A stretch of DNA of 64,000 bases from Gilvibacter sp. SZ-19. Lineage in GTDB: Bacteria; Bacteroidota; Bacteroidia; Flavobacteriales; Flavobacteriaceae. The DNA is taken from NCBI RefSeq assembly GCF_002163875.1, contig NZ_CP019333.1, positions 1,370,864-1,434,863 of the forward strand. The letters are read 5' to 3'. The notes under the pieces are model-generated. The model ran no database searches, was not told the DNA's origin, and saw nothing but the letters and a program-made list of their open reading frames with translations. The position numbers and the translations under genes are program-made. How positions within the stretch are numbered: the first letter of the stretch is position 1; each line of letters starts with the position of its first letter. Below, piece by piece: positions 30,988 through 47,274 of the stretch.

Positions 30988-32247
30988 TTATTGCAGCTCA
31001 ATCATTTTGAAAATTCTATCTCCAATTTTCGAGTCGAGCTTATTGTTTGAATCGAAAATGTTTAAAAAACCTAAAGCGCATTCATTCAATTCTTCATCAT
31101 TTTCATGAGAGTACCCTTTCCAATAAATGCCTTTGTGAACTACCCTATCTTCATTGTCTGGATACAGAAGCATACTCTTAGGACAATCCCAATACATATT
31201 GTAGACATACATTTGGCGCAGGTCGTCTAAAGAGGGTTTAGAAAAAGACGGAACCTTCCATTTGGTATCAATGATATAAACGACTTTATTTTCCTGTTTA
31301 ATCACAATATCAGGTCTAACTCTCCGAGAGTTCCAAAAGGCCTGGGATTCTTGACCATGAACACTGTAATTAGTTTCTTTTACCGCCTTTTTCAATTTTC
31401 CAAGAACGTAGCTCTCCCAAAGCGAATTCATATTAAACAGAAGCGCTAACATGTTTTCGTTTCCTTTAGTGATGTTTGGAGCAAAGTTTAATATGATTAA
31501 GCGAGCAATTTCTAATGCAGTTTGATATTGCTTCGTCTTTCTGTTTAGAGGAATGCGATTAAAGGTTTGTTGATCGACCTTAATTTTTGAGGTTTCTGGA
31601 AATTCTAATTCAACAATCTTGCTCGGACTGTATAGATAGGTTCCCTTAGAGAGTCTTATAACAATATCGAGTGCTTTACGTAGCACTTGATGAATTAGAT
31701 GATCCCTTTCATAGGTTTGATGCTCCGTATAAAAACGCTCTTTATGAACCAGATTTTTCGAAATGTGTTTAGCGAATACAAGCTTTCCTTTAAGAACAGA
31801 CAAGTTGTTTTGTTCCCGGTAATATTGTCTTATTAACCCTCGATGGATTAAAACTTGCAATTCATTTAAATACCACTCAAAATAGATGTCAAGGAGGTGG
31901 ATACTTTGCTTGTTTACTTGAGCGTTCCCAACCTGTTTAACCTTAATGTTTTTTGTAGCCTTAAGCATTTCAATTAAGGCCTTTTGCCAATCTTCTTTAT
32001 TTTGACTAGAGCGGTCAATTTTAGGCAGGATTTCGATAGTAAGACCATCAATTTGAACAACGCCTACGTAGTTTTGAGATATCACATTTCTATGACCGAC
32101 TTTAAAGTATTGATTGTTGTGAAACTCGTTCCATTTCACAAGGGCGTCAAAATGCCTTTGCTTAAATGTGCACTGGCTAGGAGAATACTTTTTACCGACA
32201 ACTAATTTATCGTATTCAAATACCTGTATCCGCTTATCGCTAGGCAT
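30988..32247 (-). CDS. mcrC: McrC-type nuclease subunit of a McrBC restriction system
   Basis: 419 aa. An N-terminal McrC domain (about residues 1-120, with YVGVVQIDGLTIEILPKID) is followed by a PD-(D/E)xK nuclease core: RRVRPDIVIKQ then VVYIIDTKWKVP, giving Asp and the D-x-K pair at about residues 312-332. It cuts DNA when driven by the McrB GTPase, usually at modified cytosine. Its start overlaps the mcrB stop by 8 nt, so the subunits are coupled. AT-rich like the rest of the island. Confidence 0.92.
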   Translation of the reverse strand: MPSDKRIQVFEYDKLVVGKKYSPSQCTFKQRHFDALVKWNEFHNNQYFKVGHRNVISQNYVGVVQIDGLTIEILPKIDRSSQNKEDWQKALIEMLKATKNIKVKQVGNAQVNKQSIHLLDIYFEWYLNELQVLIHRGLIRQYYREQNNLSVLKGKLVFAKHISKNLVHKERFYTEHQTYERDHLIHQVLRKALDIVIRLSKGTYLYSPSKIVELEFPETSKIKVDQQTFNRIPLNRKTKQYQTALEIARLIILNFAPNITKGNENMLALLFNMNSLWESYVLGKLKKAVKETNYSVHGQESQAFWNSRRVRPDIVIKQENKVVYIIDTKWKVPSFSKPSLDDLRQMYVYNMYWDCPKSMLLYPDNEDRVVHKGIYWKGYSHENDEELNECALGFLNIFDSNNKLDSKIGDRIFKMIELQ

Positions 32248-34879
32248 TGTTAATGATTGATCTAATTTTTTTAATGTCGATTTCTTCCAAAGGGATTAAA
32301 CTGTGCTTTTTATCCAATGAATATTCTACTTCGGCATCAAATTTTGCGAATAATTCTTCTCCATTTTGGTCATTTGTTTCTATAAACTGCTCGCCCAGTA
32401 TCAATCCAATTTTTGTATAGTCGCCAAAGAAGTATTCTTGAAGTAGTGGAATAATATTATCTTTAAAAACTTCGATCAATTTCTCCTTGGGATCATCTGA
32501 TTCTTTGACTTTATAAAAATAGGAGTGACCAATGGTATGATCACGATCGTATAGAGCCTCAACGCGCGCATTGATTACATCAAGTAGTTCCGATAAGTTG
32601 ATGCTTTCAACTTCAAAATCTCCGAGCTTTATTGGATTGGGCATCATTTCTTTAAAGGAGAATCTGCGTCGCAGCGCAGTGTCAAGAGCCTCCACAGAAC
32701 GGTCTGCGGTGTTCATGGTGCCATATATGTCTAGGTTTTGGGGGACTCCAAATTCATCTTTGGAATAGGGCAGCGTGGTTGTGAGTTCATTCTTAGCTCC
32801 TTTGCGCTTATCTGACTCTATCAAAGTAATTAACTCGCCAAATATGGCAGAAACGTTCCCTCGATTAATTTCATCAATGAAAATTGCATATCTATTGTCC
32901 GGATCCTTTTCAGCTTTGAGGCATATATTCTTGAATATCCCATCTTTTATTTGGTAGCCTAAGTCAGCTCCTTGTTCTTCGTCTGTTTCTGGTAAGAGCG
33001 GCTTTATTCCTTCTATAAAATCTTCATAGGAGAATGATTGATGAAAAGTGACGAATTCATAATGCTTTACTATGTTATCGGGATTTGGATTATAATTTTC
33101 TACTGAATCTTTTAATTCATATAATTCTGGTACTAAATCCTCTACACGTTCTTCTAGAATTTCCCAATGAGAGTCTTCAGTCTTATTAAAGATTAACGGC
33201 GGTCTTCTATTAGAAACATTAACAAATTCGCATTCGTCAATGGTATGGCTTTGTAATTGTCCCCAAATCGTTGCCCGCACGGTTTTGGAGTTTGATAGCT
33301 CTACTTTTTTCTGAATCCATTCATGTTCAAAGATCTCAGAAACCTTTGCACTTTCTTTATCCAATAATGCTATAGCGATAACCTGCCACCACGAACAACT
33401 GCTTACTACTGATTCGAAATGTTGTTCAGCGCTTATGGATGTTTCTTCTGAGATGTATTTTTCAAATAAGTTGTCTTTTAGGTAATAGGTTTTGCCTGTT
33501 CCTGGAGGGCCGTATAAAATTTGATTTAATGGAATAGATGGGGCACTCATGGGCTTTGTCTTTAAAAATTTCGCTCTGAATTCTTTGTCAAAAACTGCTT
33601 TTTCAAACTCTGTGTTGTTATGATTTCTAAAACCTGATTTTGAGGTTCGCCTTAGCTCTTCTTCAATTGCACCAAAGGTGAAGGGTTTAATTTCATCTAG
33701 TGCGGAATGTTCGTTAAAAGTAGTGTAGAAATGTCTTACAGGGCCATCGAAAGGAATGTAAGAATCATCAAGTTTTGAGTTTGAAATTATCCAATAGTCG
33801 TTCTGGTTCTGAGGCTTTAACCTCCAGATAAAACGTTGACCGATATTTAGATTAAGATATTTTGACCCACACGTAAATACAAGTCTTTCGTCCCCAATTT
33901 GCAGATTAAATTGTTGAACTATTTCATCTAAAAACTCAAAGTAGAAGAGTATTTCTTCTTCATTGAAAAACGAAAGAGCTTTTTCAAAATCAAAAGGTTT
34001 TTCATCCTCTCCCAATTTTTCATTTAAGAATCGCACATAATTTTTCTTTCCCATGATTGCCTTGGGAATACCATTGCTGTGATGATTATCATAATCTATA
34101 AAATCAGGATACTTATTACGTTCTTTTTTGCTAAATGTGAATTGTACTTCTCTTATAAATTCATCAACTTTTTGAGGATTTACTTCAAAAAAACTCTGAT
34201 TTGGGAAATAAGCTTCGATTTCATTCAATCTTTGTACGACAGATGCAATTGAGTTGCCTAGATAATAACTGTAAGATTCCGGCGCGTTCTCCAGCAACCA
34301 TTGGGCGAATTCTTCTTTTAGGTTTATGGCATTTACTGGGTTATCATCAAGATCGTTATTGGATTTATTACTATAGGCCAGAACATTCTTAATTATGTTG
34401 TCAAACTTCTCATTAGAGATCAATAAATTTTCAATTTTAGAATTTCTACAAACAGCTTTAATTTTTGGAAAGTACGTATCCAAAAACTGAAATAACTGTT
34501 CCGGGTTATTTTTGGTTATTATTCCACCACTTACAATAAATTTCTCATTATTCTCAGTCTCTTCACCTTCTTTGAAAACTGTTCTTAGTTCCTTGTAAAA
34601 ATCCAGTAGTAATTGGTCTTTTTCTCCTTTATGCACAATTTCAAAATTGAAACGCAAGCCGTCGCTATTAGGGAAAAAAGCAAGTCCAGCGCTTCGAGTC
34701 ATGTTAATTCCACCACTGCGATCAATTATACCAACAAATGCGTAATGCTCATTTCCTTGGAAGTAAAAACCTTTCTCAAATTTTTCACCACGATTTCTTT
34801 GCCTACATATAAAGTTGAATTCCGGTTGTTGCTGGCGATATTCTAAAAGAATGGAGAGAATGTCTTGGTGAAAAGTCAT
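32240..34879 (-). CDS. mcrB: McrB-type AAA+ NTPase with an extended N-terminal region
   Basis: 879 aa, larger than E. coli McrB. The N-terminal half (about residues 1-430) should recognise DNA but carries no domain I can name; it opens with a segment resembling MrcB-type N-terminal modules (FEKGFYFQGNEHYAFVGIID). The AAA+ core has Walker A LYGPPGTGKTYYL (about residue 455), then FIDEINRGNVSAIFGELITL (about 670) and GTMNTADRSVEALDTALRRR (about 725). In the family the N-terminus determines target specificity, so the modification or signal recognised here cannot be stated. No copy of the shared island operator lies upstream. Confidence 0.9.
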   Translation of the reverse strand: MTFHQDILSILLEYRQQQPEFNFICRQRNRGEKFEKGFYFQGNEHYAFVGIIDRSGGINMTRSAGLAFFPNSDGLRFNFEIVHKGEKDQLLLDFYKELRTVFKEGEETENNEKFIVSGGIITKNNPEQLFQFLDTYFPKIKAVCRNSKIENLLISNEKFDNIIKNVLAYSNKSNNDLDDNPVNAINLKEEFAQWLLENAPESYSYYLGNSIASVVQRLNEIEAYFPNQSFFEVNPQKVDEFIREVQFTFSKKERNKYPDFIDYDNHHSNGIPKAIMGKKNYVRFLNEKLGEDEKPFDFEKALSFFNEEEILFYFEFLDEIVQQFNLQIGDERLVFTCGSKYLNLNIGQRFIWRLKPQNQNDYWIISNSKLDDSYIPFDGPVRHFYTTFNEHSALDEIKPFTFGAIEEELRRTSKSGFRNHNNTEFEKAVFDKEFRAKFLKTKPMSAPSIPLNQILYGPPGTGKTYYLKDNLFEKYISEETSISAEQHFESVVSSCSWWQVIAIALLDKESAKVSEIFEHEWIQKKVELSNSKTVRATIWGQLQSHTIDECEFVNVSNRRPPLIFNKTEDSHWEILEERVEDLVPELYELKDSVENYNPNPDNIVKHYEFVTFHQSFSYEDFIEGIKPLLPETDEEQGADLGYQIKDGIFKNICLKAEKDPDNRYAIFIDEINRGNVSAIFGELITLIESDKRKGAKNELTTTLPYSKDEFGVPQNLDIYGTMNTADRSVEALDTALRRRFSFKEMMPNPIKLGDFEVESINLSELLDVINARVEALYDRDHTIGHSYFYKVKESDDPKEKLIEVFKDNIIPLLQEYFFGDYTKIGLILGEQFIETNDQNGEELFAKFDAEVEYSLDKKHSLIPLEEIDIKKIRSIINNA

Positions 34880-35202
34880 TAGAATATTTTGAAGTATTTT
34901 ATTAAAGGAATCAAATGATTTTTAGTTCTTGAGCGATTTCTTGGGTAGAATTTGCCTTAACCTATCTTTTGGTATTCTCAGCCTCACGAATACTCGTCGG
35001 CGAACCGTCTGGCAGGAATATGTTTATGGTTTGAATTTCATTCTAGTTTTCGATTGAGATATAATTGTGGCAATAGTACTTATAAACTTGATTTGTGTGG
35101 AGATTTAAAGTTAAACAATCTTTAGATTCATTTAATCAGGAAATTTCAAGACCTTATAATCAATATCATTCTAATAAAAAATCAACAAATAATATCTCTG
35201 AT
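34880..35202. other. AT-rich spacer between mcrB and the helicase gene
   Basis: No gene, tRNA or clear repeat seen. It probably contains the mcrBC promoter, but no convincing TAnnTTTG is visible on the minus strand near 34890-34960. Confidence 0.5.
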
Positions 35203-36552
35203 TTAGTAGAGAATTATATCTTTTTTCGCCCTTGTAATTGCGGTGTATTGATAGCGCAGGGTCGGCATGTAGAATGAGTTAAGCAGAACTTTATTCCATT
35301 CACCTCCTTGGGCCTTATTACAAGTTATTGAATGCCCGTAAGTAGCCCGTATTGCCCCGACATATCTATCATCCGAAGGATTTCCAGATTCTCTAAAAAT
35401 TTTATTTTTTTTGAAGCGTTCGTGTCTTAATTTGCCCTCTTGTTCTCTTGTAATTCCTTTTGGATCTATGACCGAATCAATTAATAAATAATCATCCAAT
35501 TCTTCTTCATTGTCTTCTAAATCCTTATAGATTAGGGTAACCGGGACGAATTTTAAACCAGCTACGAACTCGGTGCTACTCAAGTCTATAGATTTAATAA
35601 TTACATGATCTCCACTGTATAAGTTAACTCCATTTCTTTTCCAAGTTTGGGTAAGAATTAGCAAATCTTCTTTTTCGAGCACATTAGCCTTATCTCCATA
35701 TATCTTTTTGCGTACAACTCTGTTAAAAGCCATATTCATCTTATGTGTTGCTCCAATTGAAACAACATTATCAAATCCATGTTCATTAAAGTTTTGTATA
35801 TAAGAATCACAAGCATTCCAAAAGGACTCTCTGCCTACATTACTTAGATTGAAATGCTGTTTGCCTTCTTCAATGGCACGTCTTAGTCCGGTGGCATTTT
35901 TTAAAATATAACTACCATCTTCCTGTCTTTTAACCTCATCTAAATGGTGGGCTGATCCTGTAAGTTTAAAGTTAGATTCAATAAAATTTTGTGAAAGCGC
36001 TTTTGAATCTGATTCATTAATAGGGGGCAACTGATTGCGGTCGCCAAGAAATATTACTTTGTTTTCCTTGTTTCCTGTTTTAATAAACTTGATAAGGTCA
36101 TTCAGGAGCGAATCATTACTGGAAAATAAGCTGTTCTCTGACCTGGTTTTCACCGAATTTATCATTGATGCCTCATCGATGAGGAAAATTGTAAGATCCT
36201 CGACCTGATTTGGTTTTAAAACAAAACGCACTTCTCCAGTTTCGTTATTCACTGAAGTATTGTAGATCATAGAATGGATCGTACTGTTTACAGTTTTGCA
36301 CTTGCGCCCCAGAATTCTAGCGGCTCGCCCCGTTGGCGCTGCTATTTTATAGAATAACCCCTTCGAATTCAGGTAGCCAATTAAGGCTGTTGTAATCGAG
36401 GTTTTGCCTGTTCCCGCAGCCCCTGTAAGGATTAAGAAATCATCAGAATTGTCTGATGAAACAAAATCGGACATCGCGAGTAGTACATCTTTTTGGCCTC
36501 TTGTTGGGGTGTCAAATTGTAAGTAATCCAGAATTGTAACGCCTTGTCTCAT
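35203..36552 (-). CDS. RecD-like superfamily 1B DNA helicase
   Basis: 449 aa. AAA_30-type core with Walker A LTGAAGTGKTSITTALIGYL (about residues 42-61), APTGRAARILG, Walker B IFLIDEASMIN, a Gln-containing FLGDRNQLPPI motif, and the UvrD_C_2-type C-terminus ATYGHSITCNKAQGGEWNKV … YTAITRAKK. Predicted 5'-3' helicase, acting alone rather than in RecBCD. The gene has its own promoter with the shared island operator (36590-36612, -7 element at 36575-36582), so it belongs to the coordinated set and not simply to the retron transcript. Confidence 0.88.
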   Translation of the reverse strand: MRQGVTILDYLQFDTPTRGQKDVLLAMSDFVSSDNSDDFLILTGAAGTGKTSITTALIGYLNSKGLFYKIAAPTGRAARILGRKCKTVNSTIHSMIYNTSVNNETGEVRFVLKPNQVEDLTIFLIDEASMINSVKTRSENSLFSSNDSLLNDLIKFIKTGNKENKVIFLGDRNQLPPINESDSKALSQNFIESNFKLTGSAHHLDEVKRQEDGSYILKNATGLRRAIEEGKQHFNLSNVGRESFWNACDSYIQNFNEHGFDNVVSIGATHKMNMAFNRVVRKKIYGDKANVLEKEDLLILTQTWKRNGVNLYSGDHVIIKSIDLSSTEFVAGLKFVPVTLIYKDLEDNEEELDDYLLIDSVIDPKGITREQEGKLRHERFKKNKIFRESGNPSDDRYVGAIRATYGHSITCNKAQGGEWNKVLLNSFYMPTLRYQYTAITRAKKDIILY

Positions 36553-36574
36553 AGCTATTTTTTTTAGTTATGAG

Positions 36575-36612
36575 CAAACCTAGGACTAATGTGTGCAGTG
36601 TACTTGCATACA
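36575..36612 (-). promoter_or_regulatory. Island operator site 1 and -7 element (helicase promoter)
   Basis: Operator 36590-36612: read on the minus strand, TGTATGCA and TGCACACA with seven bases between. Seven bases later comes TAGGTTTG (36575-36582), a perfect TAnnTTTG. Start codon 22 bp downstream. Confidence 0.8.
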
Positions 36613-36617
36613 TAAAG

Positions 36618-37325
36618 TTAAAATTCACCTTCGACGGTATTAGATAGTTTGGTTAAGTCGGAGAGTATAGAGTCGTAAGTGGCAAACTTCAGGAATTTTT
36701 GAAGGTTATTTCGTTCTTCCATAGGACTTTTAGCTAGAATTGAGCATCGATGTACCCCCTCATTCCTGACTTTACGCAAATTGTCAATTGTATGACCAGT
36801 ATAATTTCCTTTAATATTAAAAAATGTTTTATTGAATGAATAAATCTTAGTCGCTATAGGAATATCTCCGATGTTAGTTATGGAATTATTACCGCGAAAT
36901 CTAGTACCTTCAATTGATTCAAGATGATCAATCAGATCATCAACTACAGGAAACAAATCATAGTAATAAAAGTTAATAAGGTTTTCGACTTGATAAAATG
37001 CAAAAACTAAGTAATCAAAAAAGCGTGTAAATTCTTTCTTTTCTTGCATATCCAGTCTAACTCCTTCCATTCTTAAATTATCTAATTCTAGTCTGGCTCT
37101 TAGTGTCTTATGAGGAATATATGAATAATCTATGCTTAATTCCGGGGATAAACTGAGGTAGTATTTTATTTTTTCGGTATTGGTAAAAACTTGCTCATCA
37201 TATAAGTTTGTTCTAGTGCCCGAAAACTTAAACTCCAAACTTTTTCTAAACCATAAATTGTTGTTGTCCTTGCAGATTTCGTCTATTAAGACTAGTAGTT
37301 TTTCTAAGCTCTCTTTCTTATACAT
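36618..37325 (-). CDS. HEPN-motif protein, likely retron effector
   Basis: 235 aa, all-helical in appearance, no membrane segment. The stretch LRKVRNEGVHRCSI contains R187-N188-E189-G190-V191-H192, the Rx4H (with Asn after Arg) motif of HEPN ribonucleases; preceding helices (FFDYLVFAFYQVENLINFYY) fit the fold. HEPN proteins commonly act as RNA-cutting toxins in phage defence. Its start overlaps the RT stop by 8 nt, so both are translated from one message; this tight link suggests it is the toxin held in check by the RT/msDNA complex. The RNase activity is inferred, not shown. Confidence 0.75.
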   Translation of the reverse strand: MYKKESLEKLLVLIDEICKDNNNLWFRKSLEFKFSGTRTNLYDEQVFTNTEKIKYYLSLSPELSIDYSYIPHKTLRARLELDNLRMEGVRLDMQEKKEFTRFFDYLVFAFYQVENLINFYYYDLFPVVDDLIDHLESIEGTRFRGNNSITNIGDIPIATKIYSFNKTFFNIKGNYTGHTIDNLRKVRNEGVHRCSILAKSPMEERNNLQKFLKFATYDSILSDLTKLSNTVEGEF

Positions 37326-38622
37326 CTTTATTTCTTTGTTCAGGAGACATTATTTCGATGTAAACTGGATCATACTCCTTCATCGCTTCGTCTAAACCAT
37401 CTGAGAAAATCGTATCCAGAATTATTGACTCGTAGTTATCATCGGACAGATTGATGGTTATAGCAGAATCTGGATTTAGTAATTCTCTAAATCTACTTCG
37501 GAGTTTTACATATGTTGGGTCATATTCTCCCTTAACCATTTTTAAATATAGTAACTTGCCCTCCAACACCATTATCAAATTGGGTGAGTCATTCTTTATA
37601 TGCCCTTTATCTTTGCGATATTTTACTCGAAATAACTCCGTGGCTTTATCATAACCATATCTTTCCCAGAAGTAAATCCAATGACGAATTTCTTTTATAT
37701 ATCGTTTAGGCACATTTACTTTCTCGTTTACCGTTAGGCCGGTTACCTCTTGTCTATATCCTCTTTTCTGCAAACGAACCTTGCTTTCTTTAACGTGGAA
37801 CTTTTGACCTACTATTATGCGCCTTACTTCACGGTCAAAGCTGGAATTGGCCGTGTAAATCGTTTCTGTGTCTCCCGAATCAAGACGATACACATTATGA
37901 TTGCTACTAAAGGTTATATCATCGGCATACCTCGTGTAATTAAGACCAAATCGCTTGGCAACGCCTGTGAGTCTCTTGTCTAAACGGTCGCATATGATAT
38001 TGGTTAACACTGGTGATGTTGAAGCTCCTTGCGGGAGTACGTTTAAGTTTACAGATTCCCATTTATCATCAATAAGCCTTTGAACTTCCATATTTGTACA
38101 ACAAATTGCTTTTATCATATTGGCAATTTTTTTACGTTCTACAGAGGTGCCTAAATTAAAGGGTTCAATTAGTAATCTTGCCCATACTCTATTTGCATCA
38201 ATGCTTGGGAAGAAATCTTTTAAGTCAATATTATAGACATAGTTTTTGCCGATATGTTTCCGAGCATTATTTACAATTGATCGATTCTGAATAAATCCAG
38301 TAGCATTATCATGAGGCTGGTGAATTGCACTCAAAATAATTGATACAGCCTTTTGAAACTCTTTTAAACCCTCAGATGGGGCATGAATTGTGCGTGTCCC
38401 ACCACTCTTTTTCTCAATTGAAAAAGAGAAGTACTTCTTTTCCATCTTAACATTTGGGTTTAAATTTATGTAGTAGTTCAGTTGCTGTTCTGAAAAAGCA
38501 ATAGTCTTCTCTTTATATATCAGTTCTTTTACTTTATTAAGTAGAAATAGAAAATCCTTTTTGCTAGACATATTCGCAAAAAGATCTCGGATATATTCGG
38601 TCTGATAAGTATTTAATTTCAT
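37318..38622 (-). CDS. Retron reverse transcriptase
   Basis: 434 aa. RT motifs in order: GTRTIHAPS (residues 75-83), GFIQNRSIVNNARKH with the retron-type NAxxH (NARKH, 119-123), NIDLKDFFPSI with the first catalytic Asp (133), PQGASTSPVLTNII (198-210), RYADDITFS with catalytic YADD (232-235), and the Y-region VTG motif (EVTGLTVN, 292-299) followed by NVPKRYIKEIR. NAxxH together with VTG distinguishes retron RTs from group II intron, DGR and Abi RTs. About 100 extra C-terminal residues follow the thumb. The msr-msd locus lies just upstream. Confidence 0.92.
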   Translation of the reverse strand: MKLNTYQTEYIRDLFANMSSKKDFLFLLNKVKELIYKEKTIAFSEQQLNYYINLNPNVKMEKKYFSFSIEKKSGGTRTIHAPSEGLKEFQKAVSIILSAIHQPHDNATGFIQNRSIVNNARKHIGKNYVYNIDLKDFFPSIDANRVWARLLIEPFNLGTSVERKKIANMIKAICCTNMEVQRLIDDKWESVNLNVLPQGASTSPVLTNIICDRLDKRLTGVAKRFGLNYTRYADDITFSSNHNVYRLDSGDTETIYTANSSFDREVRRIIVGQKFHVKESKVRLQKRGYRQEVTGLTVNEKVNVPKRYIKEIRHWIYFWERYGYDKATELFRVKYRKDKGHIKNDSPNLIMVLEGKLLYLKMVKGEYDPTYVKLRSRFRELLNPDSAITINLSDDNYESIILDTIFSDGLDEAMKEYDPVYIEIMSPEQRNKDV

Positions 38623-38633
38623 CTTAAAAGAAT

Positions 38634-38876
38634 GACAAACTGAAGTATATACTCTTTATCTATGGCTCCATATGCTAAAAATAGCCTTGCCATGACTTAC
38701 CATGATAATAAAAATCATAGCAATAAAAAGTGAGGGTTGTTTTTGTGGTTTCTTAAAAGAAATCAGTCAAAATAACTCCTCTAACATTCAGTTGTAGCAT
38801 GGCTACAACATTCTGCCGAATACAGCAGAATACCTGCCCGAAGGCAGGCGGGTCAATACAGTGACTTCAGTTTGTC
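38634..38876 (-). ncRNA. Retron msr-msd RNA locus
   Basis: About 243 nt on the minus strand, between the RT start and the preceding gene. It is closed by a perfect 13-nt inverted repeat: a1 GACAAACTGAAGT (38864-38876) and a2 ACTTCAGTTTGTC (38634-38646), a2 ending 12 nt before the RT ATG. Inside, the 5' half has three small hairpins (CCTGCC-TTCG-GGCAGG; ATTCTGC … GCAGAAT with a TATTCGG-type loop; GTTGTAGC-CAT-GCTACAAC), as in an msr. The 3' half has a long msd-like stem: 38716-38731 pairs with 38651-38664 (ACTTTTTAT/ATAAAGAGT with one wobble, then CTATG/CATAG). The exact branch G was not identified; no clear canonical AGC follows a1. Confidence 0.8.
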
Positions 38877-38959
38877 AAATTGTAACTTTCCAATAATCAG
38901 GGTAACTCGTGAATTGGAGATTCATAAAAATAGCAATAATAAATCATGTTATCCTAAGA
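38877..38959 (-). promoter_or_regulatory. Region upstream of the retron, candidate promoter
   Basis: 83 bp between the retron RNA and the stop of the unknown 157-aa-frame gene. A minus-strand TATTTTTA (38925-38932; 7 of 8 match to TAnnTTTG) might start transcription, but read-through from the upstream genes is also possible. No shared island operator here. Confidence 0.35.
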
Positions 38960-39364
38960 TCATTTCTGCTGATCGACATATTCAAAAAGAGCGGCCAGTT
39001 CGTGAATATTCAACTTCATTTCCCTTCCCTTATATGATTCGTGGACAATTCCTGAAGGTTCCAATATGACTGTATCAAAATAATTCGAATCTCTCATATC
39101 ATCTATTATTGAATCTTCTACCAGGCTATGCCATACTTTTACCTTCCATTCATTGTCAAATGGAATCATAGTATCCAAACCTATAACTTGTTTGACAGGT
39201 ATGAAGTTCAATTTATCAAATATTGGAATAGTCCTACCTCCTACAAAAGTGACTTCATAGTTATACTTTACCAGAAGAGTTATGGCCTCTTCAATTTTAT
39301 TATCCAAGGGAACAAGACCTTTACTTCGTTCTCGCTCCTTTAGTTTTTCGAGTAATTTATTCAT
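38960..39364 (-). CDS. Protein of unknown function, partner of the gene upstream
   Basis: 134 aa from ATG 39364 (MNKLLEKLKERERSKGLVPL), 13 nt after the stop of the upstream gene; an earlier start would overlap that gene by 55 nt. Soluble. The N-terminal helix is basic and the remainder is alpha/beta (YEVTFVGGRTIPIFDKLNFI; IHELAALFEYV at the end). No family recognised. Transcribed with the 129-aa gene from an island-operator promoter, so probably part of the defence set. Confidence 0.65.
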   Translation of the reverse strand: MNKLLEKLKERERSKGLVPLDNKIEEAITLLVKYNYEVTFVGGRTIPIFDKLNFIPVKQVIGLDTMIPFDNEWKVKVWHSLVEDSIIDDMRDSNYFDTVILEPSGIVHESYKGREMKLNIHELAALFEYVDQQK

Positions 39365-39377
39365 AACGTATTTTGTT

Positions 39378-39767
39378 CTAATTGAGAGAAATATTTTGTT
39401 CTCCATACCAATTGCAATGGTAAATATCAACAATTTCCTGACCTTCTATTTCAAAAAATAAAGCGAAGTGATTACCTGACTTATTGCCGATGAATTTGCA
39501 AACAGGTTGCAAACAATTGCAACCGTGGCAAGTATCAAGATCCATCAATAACTCTGTATCACCTAATTCTCTAAAATGCTCAAATCGCTCAGCAAGCTTA
39601 TTTACAAAAGCTTTTTTGCCGATATCTTCATAATCCACTCCAGGCTTTAGATAGATGTTAAGAAATTCAGTACTCATCATCATAATGGAACACCAAATGG
39701 TGTTAATGTAGTCTAAATTGTATCTGTTTTCAAGATCGCTGATTGAAAGTAGTGAGCTGCGTTTCAT
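39378..39767 (-). CDS. Cys-rich protein of unknown function
   Basis: 129 aa, soluble. The C-terminal half has a possible zinc site, LDTCHGCNCLQPVCKFIG (Cys spacing CxxCxC … C), followed by NHFALFFEIEGQEIVDIYHC. The N-terminal part is helical. I recognise no named family. Its promoter carries the shared operator (39794-39816) with -7 element at 39779-39786, so it is coregulated with the ATPase and type I systems, and it lies divergently beside the WYL regulator gene. A two-gene defence or toxin-antitoxin module is possible but unproven. Confidence 0.65.
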   Translation of the reverse strand: MKRSSLLSISDLENRYNLDYINTIWCSIMMMSTEFLNIYLKPGVDYEDIGKKAFVNKLAERFEHFRELGDTELLMDLDTCHGCNCLQPVCKFIGNKSGNHFALFFEIEGQEIVDIYHCNWYGEQNISLN

Positions 39768-39778
39768 AATTTTTTATG

Positions 39779-39816
39779 CAAGAATACCGCCTATGTGTGC
39801 AATAGACTTGCATACA
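39779..39816 (-). promoter_or_regulatory. Island operator site 2 and -7 element (unknown two-gene module)
   Basis: Operator 39794-39816, on the minus strand TGTATGCA and TGCACACA seven bases apart. The -7 element TATTCTTG (39779-39786) is 7 bases further, matching TAnnTTTG except one base. Confidence 0.75.
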
Positions 39817-39939
39817 TTATGATATGATCTTGAACAGAGTAAAATTATAGGTGAAGCCCTTTTAATTTAATATCTTTATACTTCCCCACTCTCTTTCTCA
39901 ATACGCAGAAGGAGGTGGGTTTATTTTTAATCAGATTTT

Positions 39940-40956
39940 ATGCCCTATTCTAAAAATCAAATAATTCGCTATCAAACATTGGATAGGTGTTTTCGTAGCA
40001 GGGTAAATCGATATTTTATAGATGACCTTGTAGAAGCCTGTCAGGTTGCTATCGAAGAATTTTCAGGAAATGCTGAGGCTATACAAAAGAGGCAAATCTA
40101 TAATGATATTGCCTTTATGAAAAGTGACAATGGGTATGCTGCTCCGATCATAAAGGACAAAATAGGAAGAAGCGTATATTACTATTATGAAGATCCTAAT
40201 TTCTCTATCAACAACCAACCATTAACCGAAGATGAAGCTTTAGAGCTAAAAGAAACACTTCTTACTTTAAACCGATTCAAGGGATTGCCTCAATTCGAGT
40301 GGATTGAGAGTATGACCACAAGGCTAGAGGCTTCATTTCAATTCGGAATAGATGCTAACCAAGTCATCGAATTTGATCAAAATGAATTTTTAAAAGGAAA
40401 AGAATTCATTAATGCTTTGTATCACGCAATAATCAATAAAACTCCATTAGAAATACATTACCAAAGTTTCAAAGAAAATGAACGGCAGATAATAGAATTG
40501 CATCCTTATTATCTAAAGCAATTCAATAATCGTTGGTTTGTATTTGGGCAGAATCCAAAATTCAAAGACATAACTAATTTAGCTTTAGACAGAATAGAAG
40601 ATATAGCACAATTAACAATTGATTTCATTGAAACAGATATAAACTTCAAAGAGTATTTTGAAGATTTTATTGGTGTTACGCGTTTTAATGAGCTAAGCCC
40701 ATGTAAGGTTGTCTTAAGAATTGAGCGGGACTTATGGCCATATATAGAAACCAAACCATTGCATGGATCTCAGAGAGTGTTGAATAGAACAATTGAGTTC
40801 ATAGATGTTGCATTACAGTTAATCCCAAATTATGAATTGGAAGCCGTAATTCTGCAGCACGGAGAAAGAATTGAGGTATTAGAACCTCTCGATTTTAGAA
40901 ATAAAATCACCGGTAGATTAAAGAAACTAATAGACAAATATAACCGTGCAGAATAA
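39940..40956 (+). CDS. WYL-domain transcriptional regulator
   Basis: 338 aa. An N-terminal DNA-binding region (YSKNQIIRYQTLDRCFRSRV … QKRQIYNDIAFMKS) resembles the winged helix of BrxR/CapW-type regulators, followed by a WYL domain (TPLEIHYQSFKENERQIIEL then HPYYLKQFNNRWFVFGQN) and a C-terminal extension. Family knowledge: such proteins bind inverted repeats and control phage-defence islands (BREX, CBASS), often relieved by a nucleic-acid-derived or damage signal. It is the best candidate for the protein that reads the shared 23-bp palindrome; its 3' end overlaps operator site 3. Its own promoter has no copy of that palindrome, only TATCTTTA about 65 bp upstream. Confidence 0.88.
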   Translation: MPYSKNQIIRYQTLDRCFRSRVNRYFIDDLVEACQVAIEEFSGNAEAIQKRQIYNDIAFMKSDNGYAAPIIKDKIGRSVYYYYEDPNFSINNQPLTEDEALELKETLLTLNRFKGLPQFEWIESMTTRLEASFQFGIDANQVIEFDQNEFLKGKEFINALYHAIINKTPLEIHYQSFKENERQIIELHPYYLKQFNNRWFVFGQNPKFKDITNLALDRIEDIAQLTIDFIETDINFKEYFEDFIGVTRFNELSPCKVVLRIERDLWPYIETKPLHGSQRVLNRTIEFIDVALQLIPNYELEAVILQHGERIEVLEPLDFRNKITGRLKKLIDKYNRAE

Positions 40957-40980
40957 ATGCACACATCAAATATAGATTTG
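40943..40980 (+). promoter_or_regulatory. Island operator site 3 and -7 element (ATPase promoter)
   Basis: Operator 40943-40965: degenerate left half ACCGTGCA, spacer seven bases, right half TGCACACA. TAGATTTG (40973-40980) starts exactly seven bases later. The -7 element ends 4 bp before the ATG, so the transcript is predicted to be leaderless or almost so. The left part lies in the end of the WYL gene. Confidence 0.78.
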
Positions 40981-40984
40981 CAAA

Positions 40985-42670
40985 ATGAACCAGGATCATT
41001 CAAAAGGTATTGCCTTTAAAAATTTTAGAAGGTTTCCGGAGTTTTCAATGCTTGAGTTTGGTGAGATCACTTATATGGTTGGTCGCAATAATTCAGGTAA
41101 ATCGACTATGGTAAAGGCGCTCCTTCTTGTTTTAGATTATCTAAAGAATCAACTATCTGACACATTCTCATTTGATAATCAAGCGCTCGAAGATGCCAAT
41201 ATAGTAACCTTTGGAAGGGCGAAGTGCAATTTTATTGATGAACCTGAGATTGTTTTCAATTTAAAATTAGGAGATTACAATATTACCTTAAACATTTCCG
41301 GAAATGATGATCAGACTAGAGCTAATGTCAATGTTCTGATTATTACAGATGACTGGAATGGTTATGAACTGGTGATTAACTATGATACGCAACGAACGCG
41401 TATAATAAAAAAACTTCCTAGACGAGATCAAATACTTGATACGCAGCAAGAATTAACAAAATTAGTAGCCGAAATTCAAAAATTGGAAGGGGCACTCAAA
41501 AATATCACTAAGAAAGGATCGAAAGAAGCTTTACAAATCAGTGACCAACTAAATAAATTAAGGGATAGACGAAATAGACTAGCACATAATGAAGAAATCC
41601 GCGAAGCCGAAGATGATCTCGAATACAGCCTTGAGTATCCAATAAATTATCAGGATGAGAACTTCGATGAAGACCTTCATGATGAATTTTTTGATCAAAC
41701 AGACGTGTACAATACGGAAGAGCATTTAGACGAGCTTTCCGCCCTAGATGAAGCGGAGGAAAACTCAGTTCCACGTTCAGAGGATAACGAACTTAAGGAA
41801 ATAGTGAGTGTTTTGCTTTACTACAACAACATTGCATATAAACAAGCGATAGAACTACGAGATAAATTCGCTGATGAATATGAATTCAATCAAGACATTG
41901 TTGAATTGGACAACAATAAGGAAGACTTAAAAGATTGGATTGATGAAATAGTGTCGACAATAGAGAGAGAGTCGTTTTATTACTTAGGTGCAAACCCTTC
42001 AAAACAGTCCGCACTGTTTCAGTTAAGAGACAAAAACAATGCCTTGGCACAAGCCATTCATGAGTTTAAACAACTTGATATTGGAGAGAGCACTGAAGAG
42101 GGCATGTTTGTAAAAAAATGGATGCGCGAGTTTGAGGTTGGACACAGTTATATTATTGACTTTTACGCAGGAGAGGCATATCAATTCCACGTTATTGGAG
42201 AGAATAAAACAGTCAACCACCTCTCTGACAAAGGTATGGGATCTTTACAGGCCATGCTACTTATCTTAAGAGTAGCAAGTCTAATTCGTATAAGTAAAAA
42301 GAGTGATAATACAATTACACTATTAATTGAAGAACCTGAGCTTAATCTGCACCCCGCACTTCAATCTAAACTCACCAATTTCTTTCATGAAGTTAATCGA
42401 GAATACGGTTTCAAGTTCATTATTGAGACTCACTCGGAGTATATGATAAGAAAAGCTCAGCTCTATTCAATAGAAGAAGATTACGCGAAAAACCTAGAGG
42501 TTAACCCTAATCCTTTCAAAATATTCTATTTCCATAAAGAAGAGGGACATTATGAGATGGAGTTTACCGAACAAGGAAAATTTAAAAAAGACTTTGGGCC
42601 AGGGTTCTACAATGAGGCATCTAATATTTCAATTGAAATAATCAAAAATATCCGAAAAATTAAAAGCTAA
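40985..42670 (+). CDS. AAA15/OLD-like ATPase
   Basis: 561 aa. Walker A GRNNSGKST at residues 33-41; a long charged coiled-coil insert (about 160-320, rich in Glu and Asp) instead of a compact ABC fold; ABC-like region SDKGMGSLQAMLLILRVASL (about 420), Walker B LLIEEPELNLHP (about 445-456), and FIIETHSEYMIRKAQL. Similar ATPases occur in OLD, Gabija, PARIS and retron-type defence. There is no TOPRIM region within the protein, so the effector is likely its partner gene, which overlaps by one base (TAATG). Operator site 3 drives the pair. Confidence 0.88.
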   Translation: MNQDHSKGIAFKNFRRFPEFSMLEFGEITYMVGRNNSGKSTMVKALLLVLDYLKNQLSDTFSFDNQALEDANIVTFGRAKCNFIDEPEIVFNLKLGDYNITLNISGNDDQTRANVNVLIITDDWNGYELVINYDTQRTRIIKKLPRRDQILDTQQELTKLVAEIQKLEGALKNITKKGSKEALQISDQLNKLRDRRNRLAHNEEIREAEDDLEYSLEYPINYQDENFDEDLHDEFFDQTDVYNTEEHLDELSALDEAEENSVPRSEDNELKEIVSVLLYYNNIAYKQAIELRDKFADEYEFNQDIVELDNNKEDLKDWIDEIVSTIERESFYYLGANPSKQSALFQLRDKNNALAQAIHEFKQLDIGESTEEGMFVKKWMREFEVGHSYIIDFYAGEAYQFHVIGENKTVNHLSDKGMGSLQAMLLILRVASLIRISKKSDNTITLLIEEPELNLHPALQSKLTNFFHEVNREYGFKFIIETHSEYMIRKAQLYSIEEDYAKNLEVNPNPFKIFYFHKEEGHYEMEFTEQGKFKKDFGPGFYNEASNISIEIIKNIRKIKS

Positions 42671-43683
42671 TGACAACAATTTATAGCGAACAGCAATTGT
42701 TGGATGAAATTGCCATATTCCCTGAAGACTATCCGCAGTGGAATAAGATTCTCAAGAGTGGTTTAAACATATGTATCAACATAAGTGATGATGACTTAGA
42801 TGAAAAGCTTATAAACCCCGAAGATCCCATTTTTTTAGCTCATCAAGCTTCTGCGAGTATGCCATTACCCGTTGCCTTGGAGAGTTTTATTGCAGACATA
42901 AAAGCAGATCTCACTAGAACATTAGAAAAACCAAGATCAATCTTTTTATTAGATATAGATGAAGCCGTAGCCCTTAACGCGAGACAAGATTTGGGTATGG
43001 CAATATATTCTGTCAACAACCTACCTGAAAAAATTCTTGATTTTTCTTATTCGGTAGATCTAGATAAAAATCAAAATATTCAAAACAACTGGAAAGGCAT
43101 CATCACTTTTGAGAAAGCTTTATCAAATAGCTTGATAGTTACGGATAACTTCTATTTCTCTAATGAAGACGATGGGATTAACCGTGGGTTTAGTAACCTA
43201 TTCAATTTTTTAGATGCTTATCTTCCTGATAGTTTGGCGGTGGAATATCAAATAGCTGTTTTTGCAAATGACTATAATAAACCGGAAGAGTGGTGGATAA
43301 AAGCGTATGGTCAATTACTGGCGAAAATTAGGGGCTTACGCCCATACGATATACATTTAGAGTTGATTCTTGCTCAAACCATCCATCGTAGAAGATTGAT
43401 AAGCAACTACGTCATTGGAAAAATGGACCATGGTTATGATCTTTTCCATGCTAGGAAAGTGGACGTTGTGAATTTAGACAATGAATTCGAACATTATGAG
43501 GTTTTTTCTAACCTCGATAATCTTGGCACCAAATATTTTCAAGCTGCGTCTAACACACTTGGTAAATTGGAAACTAAGTGCGCTACTTTATCAGCTTTTG
43601 TGAAGGCTAATGGAAATACTGCAGAAAGAATGTTATTTGGATGCAATAAGGACAAAACCATAAAAAACCGCCTATTAAATTAA
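42670..43683 (+). CDS. Uncharacterised partner of the ATPase, possible PLD-like fold
   Basis: 337 aa, coupled to the ATPase gene by a TAATG overlap. I do not recognise a Pfam family with certainty. Segments such as NSLIVTDNFYFSN … IHRRRLISNYVIGKMDHGYD resemble the MIT C-terminal, phospholipase-D-like fold (I-H-x-R-x-I-x-N … G-x-D-x-F), but the HKD catalytic motif is absent. No membrane segment or HNH, TOPRIM or DUF4435 signature seen. The context suggests an effector or sensor of a two-component defence module with the ATPase. The structural assignment is tentative. Confidence 0.7.
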   Translation: MTTIYSEQQLLDEIAIFPEDYPQWNKILKSGLNICINISDDDLDEKLINPEDPIFLAHQASASMPLPVALESFIADIKADLTRTLEKPRSIFLLDIDEAVALNARQDLGMAIYSVNNLPEKILDFSYSVDLDKNQNIQNNWKGIITFEKALSNSLIVTDNFYFSNEDDGINRGFSNLFNFLDAYLPDSLAVEYQIAVFANDYNKPEEWWIKAYGQLLAKIRGLRPYDIHLELILAQTIHRRRLISNYVIGKMDHGYDLFHARKVDVVNLDNEFEHYEVFSNLDNLGTKYFQAASNTLGKLETKCATLSAFVKANGNTAERMLFGCNKDKTIKNRLLN

Positions 43684-43721
43684 TGTGTGCACAAAAAATG
43701 CACACATGCGATATATATTTG
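43684..43721 (+). promoter_or_regulatory. Island operator site 4 and -7 element (hsdM promoter)
   Basis: Operator 43684-43706: TGTGTGCA, seven bases, TGCACACA, a perfect palindrome. TATATTTG (43714-43721) begins seven bases later. hsdM starts 39 bp downstream. Confidence 0.82.
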
Positions 43722-43760
43722 CAAAGTCAAAGAGAAAAACAGACAACATTTAAATCATAA

Positions 43761-45539
43761 ATGAGTAATAATAACAAAGTAGAAGTAGGGTTTATTTGGC
43801 AGATTACAGACGATGTGCTACGCGATGCCTTTAAGAAAAATGAGATCGGGGATGTGGTCCTCCCTTTTGTAGTGCTGCGACGACTAGATTGTATTTTAGA
43901 ACCCGTTAACCAAAAAGTGAGAGATGCTTATGCCAATTTTAAAGACAAAGTTGACGGGGATAAGCTGGTTCCTATTTTACGCAAAGCTTCTGGAGGACTC
44001 AAATTCTACAATACCTCGAAACACACCCTGCATTCGCTAAAGGATGAACCGCAATACATTCAAATTAACTTCAACAATTATTTAAACGGATTCAACCCAG
44101 AGGTACAAGACATACTAGAGAGCTTCCAGTTTGATAAAATTGTAGCGCGCCTTACCAAAAATAAGTTGCTTTATGAGATGATCGATGCGATCTGTAAGAT
44201 AGATCTGCACACAGAGGCTATAGATAATCATGGAATGGGTTATGTTTTTGAAGAACTAATCCGTATCTCCAACGAGCAGTCCAATGAGACAGCGGGAGAG
44301 CATTTTACCCCAAGGGACGTCATTGAGATCATGAACAACTTCATGTTTGTTAATGAGAAAGATAAGCTCTCCAAGCCAGGAATTATTAGAACCATATTCG
44401 ATCCTGCCTGTGGTACCGGGGGTATGGTAAATTTGGGTAAAAAGTTTATCCTTGAACAGGTCTGTTCAGGGAGTGAAAATAAGCCTACCATTGTTACTTA
44501 TGGTCAAGAAATTAATGAGCAGTCTTATGCTATTGCTAAGTCAGAGGCCTTAATTACCGGCGAAGATGCCAATAATATTAAACATGGTAATTCTTTTAGT
44601 GAAGATCGCTTTCAAGGCAAGACCTTTCACTATATGATGGCCAATCCGCCTTACGGGGTTACCTGGAAGAAAGACCGAAAATTCATTGAGAATGAAGCCT
44701 TAAACCCTGCAGGGCGCTTTTATGCAGGAACTCCCAGAGTAAGCGATGGCCAGCTACTGTTTTTGCAGCACATGATCTCTAAGATGGAGCGCGAAGGTTC
44801 ACGAATTGGCGTGGTAACCAATGGTTCACCCCTGTTTACAGGAAATGCAGGATCTGGCGAAAGTGATATCCGCAGATGGATCATTGAAAATGACTGGCTG
44901 GAGTGTATAGTGGCTTTACCAAAAGATCTTTTCTACAACACTGGTATTAATACCTACATCTGGTTTTTAACCAATGACAAGGCTCCGCACCGTAAAGGGA
45001 AAGTACAGCTCATAAACGGCGATGCGCAAGAGACCATTGTAGTTACCGGAAAGGAAGAGACCAAGCACCTATTTTGCCAACCCAATAAGAAAAGTTTAGG
45101 TAATAAACGAAACGAAATTACAGCCGATCACATTGAGCAGTTATTAGCGCTCTACCAAAACTTTGAGGAAAATGAGCACTCCAAGATTTTTGATAACGAG
45201 TACTTTGGCTACTATCAGTTAACGGTTGAAAAGCCTAAAGTAGATGAAAACGGGAAAATTGTTTTGGATAGCAAAGGAAATCCAAAACCTGACAGCAAGA
45301 AACGCGATACTGAAAGTGTACCGCTGTCTGAAGACGTGGAAACCTATTTTGAGACAGAAGTTAAACCACACGTACCGAACGCTTGGATAGACTATGACAA
45401 AACCCGTATAGGATACGAAATTAACTTTACTAAGTATTTCTATAACTATACACCTTTGCGCGCGGCGAGCACTATTAAAACAGAAATTGAATCTCTTGAG
45501 CAAAATATTGCCGATCTATTAAAAGACTTAATTAGCTAA
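43761..45539 (+). CDS. hsdM: Type I restriction-modification DNA methyltransferase HsdM
   Basis: 592 aa. N-terminal HsdM helical domain (about 1-150), SAM-binding FDPACGTGGM (about residue 213), catalytic NPPYG (about 293). N6-adenine methyltransferase that protects and directs the restriction complex with HsdS. A C-terminal extension follows the core. Its stop overlaps hsdS (TAATG). Driven by operator site 4. Confidence 0.96.
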   Translation: MSNNNKVEVGFIWQITDDVLRDAFKKNEIGDVVLPFVVLRRLDCILEPVNQKVRDAYANFKDKVDGDKLVPILRKASGGLKFYNTSKHTLHSLKDEPQYIQINFNNYLNGFNPEVQDILESFQFDKIVARLTKNKLLYEMIDAICKIDLHTEAIDNHGMGYVFEELIRISNEQSNETAGEHFTPRDVIEIMNNFMFVNEKDKLSKPGIIRTIFDPACGTGGMVNLGKKFILEQVCSGSENKPTIVTYGQEINEQSYAIAKSEALITGEDANNIKHGNSFSEDRFQGKTFHYMMANPPYGVTWKKDRKFIENEALNPAGRFYAGTPRVSDGQLLFLQHMISKMEREGSRIGVVTNGSPLFTGNAGSGESDIRRWIIENDWLECIVALPKDLFYNTGINTYIWFLTNDKAPHRKGKVQLINGDAQETIVVTGKEETKHLFCQPNKKSLGNKRNEITADHIEQLLALYQNFEENEHSKIFDNEYFGYYQLTVEKPKVDENGKIVLDSKGNPKPDSKKRDTESVPLSEDVETYFETEVKPHVPNAWIDYDKTRIGYEINFTKYFYNYTPLRAASTIKTEIESLEQNIADLLKDLIS

Positions 45540-46933
45540 TGCAGAAAGCTTACGAGAAATATAAGGAGAGTGGTGTAGAATGGATCGGAAATGTTCCAAA
45601 TCATTGGGAACCCATTAGATTGAAGTTTTTGGGAGCTTTATATAGTGGTCTAAGTGGTAAAAAGGGCGACGATTTTAGAAAAGAAGATTCTGAATTTAAT
45701 CACAATTACATCCCATTTACTAACATCGCCAATAATTTTGAAATTGATTTGGAGAAACTAGATTCAGTTGAGATTTTTCCAGATGAAAATCAAAATCAAG
45801 TTGAAAAGAACGACCTGTTTTTTTTAATGAGTTCTGAAAATTATGATGATATAGGGAAAACAGCTATTCTATTAGATGATACAGAGAACACCTATTTAAA
45901 CAGTTTTTGTAAAGGTTTCAGGTTATTTGATAACAAGGACTTAGATGCCAAGTTTTTGAATTACCTATTGAGCGGTGATGTTTACAGAAAGATTTTATCA
46001 ATAGAAGCAAAAGGATTTACAAGAATTAATTTGCAGATGGGTAAAATCCAGAACCTGCCTGTAGTGATTCCAGCTTCTAAAATGGAACAATCCAAAATAG
46101 CAGCCTTTCTGGACTATCATACTACATTGATCGACTCTCTTATTGACAAAAAAGAAAAGCTCATTGAAAAACTTCAAGAGCAACGGCAGGCTATTATTAA
46201 CGAAGCTGTGACTAAGGGATTGAATCCTGGAGCTGAACTGAAAGATAGTCGCATTGATTGGCTTGGAAATATACCGAAGCACTGGAAGTTTATTAAGATT
46301 TCTTCTGTGGCAAAACAGAACCAATATTCAATTACTGGAGGTCCTTTTGGCTCAGATCTAAAGAATGAAGAATTCACTCCCGAAGGTGTTAGAATTATAC
46401 AACTTCAAAATATTGGTGTTGGCGAATTTAGAGATCATTATAAAATTTATACAAGTGAAGAAAAAGCGGATGAACTATTCTCATGTAATATTTTTCCAGG
46501 TGATTTGATTATTGCAAAAATGGCTGATCCTGTTGCTAGAGCTTGTATAATGCCAGACTTCGATAGAAGATACATTATGGCTTCAGATGGAATAAGATTT
46601 GAAGTTAATGATGAAAAAGTCTCTTCAAAATTTTTAGAATATGCCATTAATTCCAAATATTTCAATTTTCAGGCAGAATTAAAAAGCACAGGGACAACAA
46701 GGTTAAGAATTGGTTTAACAGAGTTTAAAAAATTAAAACTCTTGCTACCCCCAAGAGCCGAACAAGACATCATACTCGAATTTCTTGAAGGAAAAGACTC
46801 TTCAATTAAGAAGTCGATAGATAGCATAAATATTTCAATCCAAAAACTCAAAGAGTATCGTCAGTCACTAATTAGTGAGGCGGTAACCGGTAAAATAGAC
46901 GTAAGAGACTGGCAAAAACCTAACGATAGTTGA
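45539..46933 (+). CDS. hsdS: Type I specificity subunit HsdS
   Basis: 464 aa with two target-recognition domains: first begins GVEWIGNVPNHWEPIRLKFL, second DWLGNIPKHWKFIKISSVA, each followed by a helical conserved region (KLIEKLQEQRQAIINEAVTK; LKEYRQSLISEAVTGKI). This is the standard two-TRD design for a bipartite target. The recognition sequence cannot be read from the protein. Follows hsdM with a one-base overlap. Confidence 0.94.
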   Translation: MQKAYEKYKESGVEWIGNVPNHWEPIRLKFLGALYSGLSGKKGDDFRKEDSEFNHNYIPFTNIANNFEIDLEKLDSVEIFPDENQNQVEKNDLFFLMSSENYDDIGKTAILLDDTENTYLNSFCKGFRLFDNKDLDAKFLNYLLSGDVYRKILSIEAKGFTRINLQMGKIQNLPVVIPASKMEQSKIAAFLDYHTTLIDSLIDKKEKLIEKLQEQRQAIINEAVTKGLNPGAELKDSRIDWLGNIPKHWKFIKISSVAKQNQYSITGGPFGSDLKNEEFTPEGVRIIQLQNIGVGEFRDHYKIYTSEEKADELFSCNIFPGDLIIAKMADPVARACIMPDFDRRYIMASDGIRFEVNDEKVSSKFLEYAINSKYFNFQAELKSTGTTRLRIGLTEFKKLKLLLPPRAEQDIILEFLEGKDSSIKKSIDSINISIQKLKEYRQSLISEAVTGKIDVRDWQKPNDS

Positions 46934-46935
46934 TC

Positions 46936-47130
46936 ATGGAATTGTATGATTTTGATACTGTTTTAAGTTTTGGCCAACACAAAGGTGAAACGGTTGCAGA
47001 GGCCATGCAGAACAACCCTACTTATATAGCGTGGTGCTATGATAATATTGTTGATTTCTTTATCACTGACGGGGCCTGGGCAGCGCTTAGCCTTCATAAA
47101 GAATTAGAAGATGCTTTAGGGAGTATTTGA
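46936..47130 (+). CDS. Small protein with ExoX-C-like motif, possibly truncated by an in-frame TGA
   Basis: 64 aa from ATG 46936 to TGA at 47128-47130. Sequence VLSFGQHKGETVAEAM … NNPTYIAWCYDN resembles the small ExoX C-terminal-type domain (FGKYKGxxxxE … YxxWC). The same frame stays open for 45 more codons after the TGA (47131-47268), encoding a Lys/Glu-rich helix that reads like real protein (NKKFHETKRNRFKSEMLKRY). Either a nonsense mutation shortens a longer protein, or the tail is coincidental. Lies between hsdS and hsdR. Confidence 0.6.
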   Translation: MELYDFDTVLSFGQHKGETVAEAMQNNPTYIAWCYDNIVDFFITDGAWAALSLHKELEDALGSI

Positions 47131-47274
47131 ATTGACTCCAATGAAGTTCATAAGGCAATTAAAAAGAATAAGAAGTTTCATGAAACAAAGCGCAATAGGT
47201 TCAAAAGCGAAATGTTGAAACGCTATGAGAATGAAATTGAGGAGCGTTTAAAGGGCACGAGAAAATTGTAGCAC

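Follow-up and report, generated by a model that had tools for sequence, protein, structure and literature searches.

The window, a 64,000-nucleotide stretch of DNA from Gilvibacter sp. SZ-19, very probably carries a complete retron on its minus strand. The system would consist of an msr-msd RNA, a reverse transcriptase (RT), and a HEPN RNase effector that is sequestered by its partners and released on phage attack. Judged from its sequence, the locus is a bona fide retron with its RNA, its RT, and a probable HEPN toxin, and it falls outside the definitions of retron types IX, XI, XII, I-C, and XIII. It apparently represents an undescribed retron variant.

A closed msr-msd RNA locus precedes the RT gene

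The retron noncoding RNA (msr-msd) extends from a1 to a2 over 245 nt (38633–38877, minus strand), an assignment based on its folding z-score, on a held-out covariance model, and on covariation. The a1 arm, TGACAAACTGAAGT (38864–38877, minus strand), forms the 5′ end of the msr, and the a2 arm, ACTTCAGTTTGTCA (38633–38646, minus strand), forms the 3′ end of the msd and stops 10 nt upstream of the start codon of the RT gene. These arms constitute a perfect inverted repeat and covary in relatives. A perfect repeat of 13 nt had been noted in the preliminary description of this DNA; the repeat is confirmed, and each arm is in fact one base longer, such that 14 of 14 positions are complementary. When the 400 nt that precede the RT gene were dinucleotide-shuffled 300 times, the longest exact inverted repeat had a mean length of 7.8 nt and a maximum of 13 nt. 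Folding of the RNA, a check proposed in the same description, yielded −90.7 kcal/mol for the 245-nt minus-strand molecule, compared with −52.3 ± 4.1 kcal/mol for shuffled sequences (z = −9.5).

The three consecutive hairpins that had been described within this interval are real, with core pair probabilities of at least 0.9 and with covariation among relatives. Hairpin 1 of the msr, GCCUGCC UUCG GGCAGGU, comprises RNA nucleotides 29 through 46 (38832–38849, minus strand) and is also evident in the predicted fold. Hairpin 2, AUUCUGCUGUAUUCGGCAGAAU, comprises nucleotides 47 through 68 (38810–38831, minus strand), and its loop region, CUGUAUUCGG, is also present in other relatives (e.g., L042 and L047). 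Hairpin 3, GUUGUAGC CAU GCUACAAC, comprises nucleotides 69 through 87 (38791–38809, minus strand).

A long bulged stem that had been proposed to pair 38651–38664 with 38716–38731 did not hold up as the main fold. Fourteen standard pairs can be drawn for it, but forcing them costs 6.3 kcal/mol, and the pair probabilities are approximately 0.4 for the outer nine pairs and approximately 0 for the inner five. In relatives, the matched strands of this stem pair no better than swapped strands. Elsewhere in the msd, a box resembling CCCTCACTT (window positions 38728–38740, minus strand) is conserved in seven relatives, including L032, L035, L036, L037, L060, and L063. A search of Rfam with the RNA returned no matching family, and single-sequence scans of viral contigs found nothing.

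The RNA architecture covaries among related loci

Comparison with orthologous loci had been set beforehand as the refuting test for the proposed RNA, and the RNA withstood this test. For the a1/a2 comparison, which included 28 loci, the anchors UUGA (5′) and CAUAnAnAAAGA (3′) were chosen without reference to pairing, and every UUGA occurrence in each locus was taken into the test. The mean pairing score was 29.4 for arms from the same locus versus 17.0 for arms from different loci, and none of 10,000 permutations was as good. The a1/a2 arms thus covary in the 28 loci, and the stem together with the hairpins does so in the six closest. In these six RNAs, to which RNAalifold was also applied, 98.1% of the cells of the a1/a2 stem and three hairpins are paired, and this value falls to 28 to 55% when the pairing partners are slid. 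Changes on both sides of a pair occur in 14 of the 37 pairs, compared with 6.3 in shuffles, wherein no value as high was seen in 500 trials.

A covariance model of five relatives, from which the window was left out, matches the window msr at 38877–38770 with a score of 82.1 bits (E = 4.6e-17), and a search of the whole 3.1-Mb genome with this model gave no match besides the window msr. When the model was applied to the other loci, matches down to an E value of 0.6 adjoined the start side of the RT gene, just upstream of it. The a1/a2 covariation and the match to the held-out model support the reading of this interval as a retron RNA, as the preliminary description had put forward.

A covarying helix places the predicted priming site

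In known retrons, the priming G adjoins the internal end of the a1 stem, and the priming contexts of validated examples are TAGC, CAGA, CAGC, GAGC, and ACGC (PMC6868368). It had been stated correctly that AGC is missing just after a1 in the window. In relatives, the sequence next to the a1 arm on its 3′ side is WWUUGA, and the WWUU segment pairs with an AAWW segment located just 5′ of a2; observed partners are UAUU with AAUA, UUUU with AAAA, and AAUU with AAUU. The corresponding 4-bp a1-proximal helix of the window is formed by UAUU (38855–38858, minus strand) as its 5′ strand and AGUA (38650–38653, minus strand) as its 3′ strand, and the two consensus strands covary. Pair 3 of this helix is standard in 59 of 67 loci versus 34.9 ± 3.8 expected (0 of 5000 shuffles as good); 21 of the 67 loci have A-U at this pair and 36 have U-A. 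Pair 4 is standard in 52 of 67 versus 42.1 ± 2.5 expected (1 of 5000 as good). These counts are mechanical, and some apparent mispairs in AAWW seem to have arisen because the automatic anchor was placed out of register (AAAGAAAGAATA, AAAGAAAAGA).

The lack of AGC appears to be explained, because the covarying WWUU:AAWW helix ends just 5′ of the UUGA G in about 67 relatives. We predict that the G of this UUGA, at position 38854 (minus strand), is the priming (branch) nucleotide because it sits where the rule derived from known retrons (PMC6868368) puts the priming G. The prediction draws on the position of this G and on its conservation, which is partly by construction given that the search anchor included UUGA; the pairing tests are free of this circularity. 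Two features expected of a retron are present in the window, namely, an msr-msd closed by a1/a2 upstream of the RT and a conserved G where the a1 stem ends on its inner side, the latter without the usual AGC context.

If priming occurs at G38854, copying should begin near G38654. Just upstream of a2 resides a putative 3′ template-start box, CAUAGAUAAAGAGUA (38650–38664, minus strand), whose consensus, CAUAnAnAAAGAAWA, is conserved across the clade. An UGAAUGUU-n6-GUUA box (38773–38790, minus strand), which in most relatives comes after the final hairpin of the msr, is the probable msr/msd boundary. The priming site and the boundary box predict a reverse-transcribed strand (msDNA) of approximately 120 nt that corresponds to 38654–38775 on the plus strand, with approximate ends. 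When considered as DNA, the predicted cDNA has no folding advantage over shuffled sequences; in contrast, many msDNAs have strong structure.

The RT belongs to a Bacteroidota clade

The RT gene (37318–38622, minus strand) encodes a protein of 434 aa that matches RVT_1 (8e-21) and whose leading PADLOC matches are retron RT models, with scores of 345 bits for type XI, 317 for XII, 291 for I-C, and 258 for XIII; RT_IX, at 152 bits, ranks much lower. The DRT2 model of NCBIfam matches with a value of 3e-7 only. Retron-specific RT motifs are NAxxH in region X and VTG in region Y (PMC6868368); both are carried by the window RT (N119-A120-x-x-H123 and residues 293–295, respectively) along with YADD, and all three are kept in close relatives. 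The type XI model covers the RT by only the first 327 of its 506 positions, and the fused protease of type XI is therefore absent.

Relatives were gathered by a phylum-wide genome search, from 84,980 species genomes, and from viral contigs. More than 80 related RT loci were found, nearly all of them in Bacteroidota. In the RT tree, the loci whose downstream genes encode HEPN or HisKin-conflict proteins (see below) form a branch of their own (77 rows; SH-aLRT 96) that sits beside a group with fused RTs (e.g., L007, L008, and L014), and the RT_XIII-like L009 and L011 are located elsewhere. By tree position and model scores, the clade adjoins types I-C, XI, and XII, and no typed PADLOC system fits the window RT at full length. 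Among the fused RTs, L007:937–2535 (minus strand) is a retron-type RT joined to an Mrr_cat restriction nuclease domain.

The RT is absent from all three same-genus genomes searched, and the retron locus is therefore patchy in its distribution. Systems of the clade are also mobile, because members sit on a predicted viral contig from IMG/VR (L112, with RT and HEPN genes) and on Chryseobacterium balustinum plasmid NZ_CP033935.1 (L139), where the clade RT and a hypothetical protein are followed by a response regulator gene. A single Pontibacter arcticus contig carries the same RT with a large downstream gene (869 aa) twice, at a distance of approximately 74 kb (L040 and L050).

In the window, the retron lies within a defense island (30988–50268). 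Its flank on one side holds an McrBC pair (30988–34879) and a PIF1/RecD-like helicase gene (35203–36552), and that on the other side holds genes for a WYL regulator (39940), an AAA_15 ATPase (40985), an unknown 337-aa protein (42670), and the type I restriction proteins HsdM/HsdS/HsdR (43761–50268). The WYL-type regulators at window positions 39940–40956 and at L005:83–1087 are alike, and each is near the retron and divergent from the RT gene; they are possibly a shared regulator of such islands.

A predicted HEPN RNase is encoded downstream of the RT

The gene that follows the RT gene, with an overlap of 8 nt, encodes a 235-aa protein (36618–37325, minus strand) that we predict to be an HEPN RNase on the basis of its motif, its structural model, and its structural matches. 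No family match to this protein was found in Pfam, PADLOC, or NCBIfam. The genes downstream of the clade RTs belong mainly to two families, one of which includes the window protein and is present at 55 loci (a number that counts the window’s own locus twice, as L001 and L002), and the other of which is present at 16 loci. The HEPN family is thus encoded 3′ of approximately 54 clade RTs, in most cases with an overlap or within a few bases of the RT gene. Moreover, L014:1–2211 (minus strand), which lies toward types XI/XII in the tree, encodes a 737-aa RT with an HEPN-like C terminus (..TLRNIPSHGDYN..), for which hhalign gives a probability of 95.8% and an E value of 7.5e-9. This fusion provides independent support for the RT–HEPN partnership, and the fusion and the approximately 54 RT–HEPN pairs link the effector gene to the RT, as is expected for a retron.

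The HEPN motif R-x4-6-H is present in the window protein as R187-N188-E-G-V-H192 (R187-x4-H192). R187 and H192 are invariant in 47 of 47 aligned effectors and an N adjoins the R in 44 of the 47; the family motif is R-N-x2-3-H, and one subfamily carries R-x3-H. An AlphaFold2 model built with 38 sequences has a pLDDT of 87.3. When this model was compared with solved structures by VIA-align, the top seven matches were HEPN toxins (6m6u, 7bxo, 5yep, 8xdj, 8xeh, 6m6w, and 8yuf) with Z values of 9.0 to 9.6 over residues ~70 to 235, although the tool warns that chance can give values of 8 to 9.6 for helical models. Csm6, sacsin HEPN, and LsoA appear lower in the same list. An HEPN helical-bundle fold is indicated by VIA-align but not by Foldseek alone, which gave no significant match of the effector model in the PDB (best E 0.76), and the fold, the motif, and the conservation must therefore be weighed jointly. 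When the effector profile was searched against PDB sequences, designed proteins alone were returned (E >0.6), and searches of plasmids and phages gave no match to the effector.

The family present at 16 loci (L037, L042, L044, L052, L054, L056, L060, L063, L072, L081, L082, L087, L093, L095, L101, and L102) gave matches to PF22561, “HisKin-conflict,” for those members that were tested. At L004, L041, L046, L048, and L098, the HisKin-conflict protein is fused to the RT, and a further gene for ~200 to 240 aa is present. Many HisKin-conflict loci have an RNA with a1, UUGA, and hairpins like that of the window.

Comparison with known systems

The type IX retron-Kva2 is composed of HEPN, winged-helix, and RT proteins and an ncRNA, and its HEPN RNase is sequestered until phage sensing frees it, whereupon tRNA is degraded (PMC13405049). 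The probable toxic effector of the window’s retron is likewise a predicted HEPN RNase, and sequestration followed by tRNA cleavage is a natural model for this system as well. However, the window RT falls outside the IX group (152 bits for RT_IX versus 345 for XI), no winged-helix gene was found beside it, and the neighboring proteins match no winged-helix family. The effector also comes after the RT in gene order, is larger (~27 kDa versus 19 kDa for Kva2 HEPN), and has a clear R-N-x2-3-H motif that is absent from the Kva2 protein.

Types XI (RT-protease), XII (RT-TIR), and I-C (RT-Toprim) of PADLOC-DB supply the nearest RT models and form the sister group in the RT tree. Their effectors are fused to the C terminus of the RT, whereas the window has a separate HEPN gene and an RT that carries no such domain and matches by its core alone. 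A type XIII assignment is disfavored by the score of 258 bits against RT_XIII, compared with approximately 600 for L009 and L011, which are typical members of that type, and by the separate branch in the tree.

The solved folds closest to effector residues 70 to 235 are HepT (HEPN) toxins of MNT-HEPN/MntA-HepT systems (rmsd 3.4–3.9; Z 9.0–9.6, values subject to the caution given above). Unlike these toxins, the window effector has an additional conserved N-terminal helical part (residues 1–65; LxxLLxxIxxLxxxxNxWF) and a retron partner, and no MNT antitoxin gene is found among its neighbors. The window RNA resembles the validated msr RNAs of Eco1, Eco2, Mxa1, and others (PMC6868368) in that the a1/a2 stem ends beside the (here predicted) priming G and small hairpins follow this G upstream of the RT. 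It differs in its priming context, which is UUGA rather than TAGC, CAGA, CAGC, GAGC, or ACGC.

Proposed mechanism and alternative explanations

The components of our model that have sequence support are the structure and conservation of the RNA, the retron identity of the RT, its linkage to the effector, and the HEPN motif and fold. We infer the priming G, the cDNA ends, the sequestration of the effector, the RNase target, and the trigger. Encoded in the order msr-msd, RT, and HEPN effector on the minus strand, the parts would make up a complete retron. The transcript would fold via a1/a2, and the 4-bp UAUU:AGUA segment would extend this helix to G38854 of UUGA. The RT would recognize the msr hairpins and prime on the 2′-OH of G38854, with copying beginning near 38654 in the CAUAnAnAAAG template box and halting near the UGAAUGUU-n6-GUUA box. 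The product would be an msDNA of ~120 nt with the predicted start CTTTATCTATGG. The RT–msDNA complex may then keep the downstream HEPN RNase inactive until a phage perturbs either part of the complex, and the freed RNase would cut RNA, probably tRNA, such that growth of the infected cell stops. This mechanism has precedent because the type IX HEPN retron degrades tRNA (PMC13405049).

An unlikely alternative is that the retron is real but the HEPN-like gene does not encode its toxin, serving instead as a partner or structural protein or acting independently. The effector’s lack of a family match in Pfam, PADLOC, or NCBIfam is consistent with this possibility, as is the use of an unrelated protein (HisKin-conflict) by the same RT clade at other loci. 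Effector swapping is normal for retrons, however, and the ~54 conserved RT–HEPN pairs, usually overlapping or abutting, the invariant, catalytic-looking R and H, and the RT–HEPN fusion of L014 all argue for a toxin.

Still less probable, in our estimation, is a DRT-like (UG/Abi) system wherein the upstream RNA serves as a template or scaffold and no 2′-5′ linked msDNA is made. DRT systems such as DRT2 and DRT9 also use structured RNAs, and the absence of the canonical AGC/TAGC priming sequence would fit such a system; yet the a1/a2 closing stem ends at a conserved G, and the RT carries NAxxH and VTG and matches retron RT models far better than it does Drt2 (3e-7). We assign almost no weight to the idea that the inverted repeat and hairpins are chance or regulatory structures, such as a terminator or attenuator leader. 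Their location just upstream of an operon is what a regulatory leader would have, but a conserved, covarying RNA architecture recurs at dozens of loci and the 14-nt repeat is not reproduced in shuffles, such that this explanation is already refuted at the sequence level.

Classification and significance

We lean toward viewing the window’s retron as a member of an unnamed retron type. This type would be defined by a large Bacteroidota RT clade, by UUGA priming via a WWUU:AAWW helix, and by an effector slot that is occupied at some loci by a canonical-motif HEPN RNase and at others by a HisKin-conflict ATPase, the latter either separate from or fused to the RT. Searches of the accessible literature on Bacteroidota retron types turned up no description of the clade, and the trees or supplements of Mestre et al. 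2020 may include it.

The findings add to retrons a widespread and apparently untyped branch in Bacteroidota, a phylum with few tested retrons, and comparative evidence predicts that this branch uses a different priming-site sequence. A retron armed with a predicted HEPN RNase that bears the textbook catalytic motif invites comparison with type IX. Furthermore, the exchange of HEPN and HisKin proteins on one RT/RNA chassis makes it testable how the RNA–DNA complex restrains unrelated toxins, and the new msr-msd/RT pairs would be useful for DNA production in cells.
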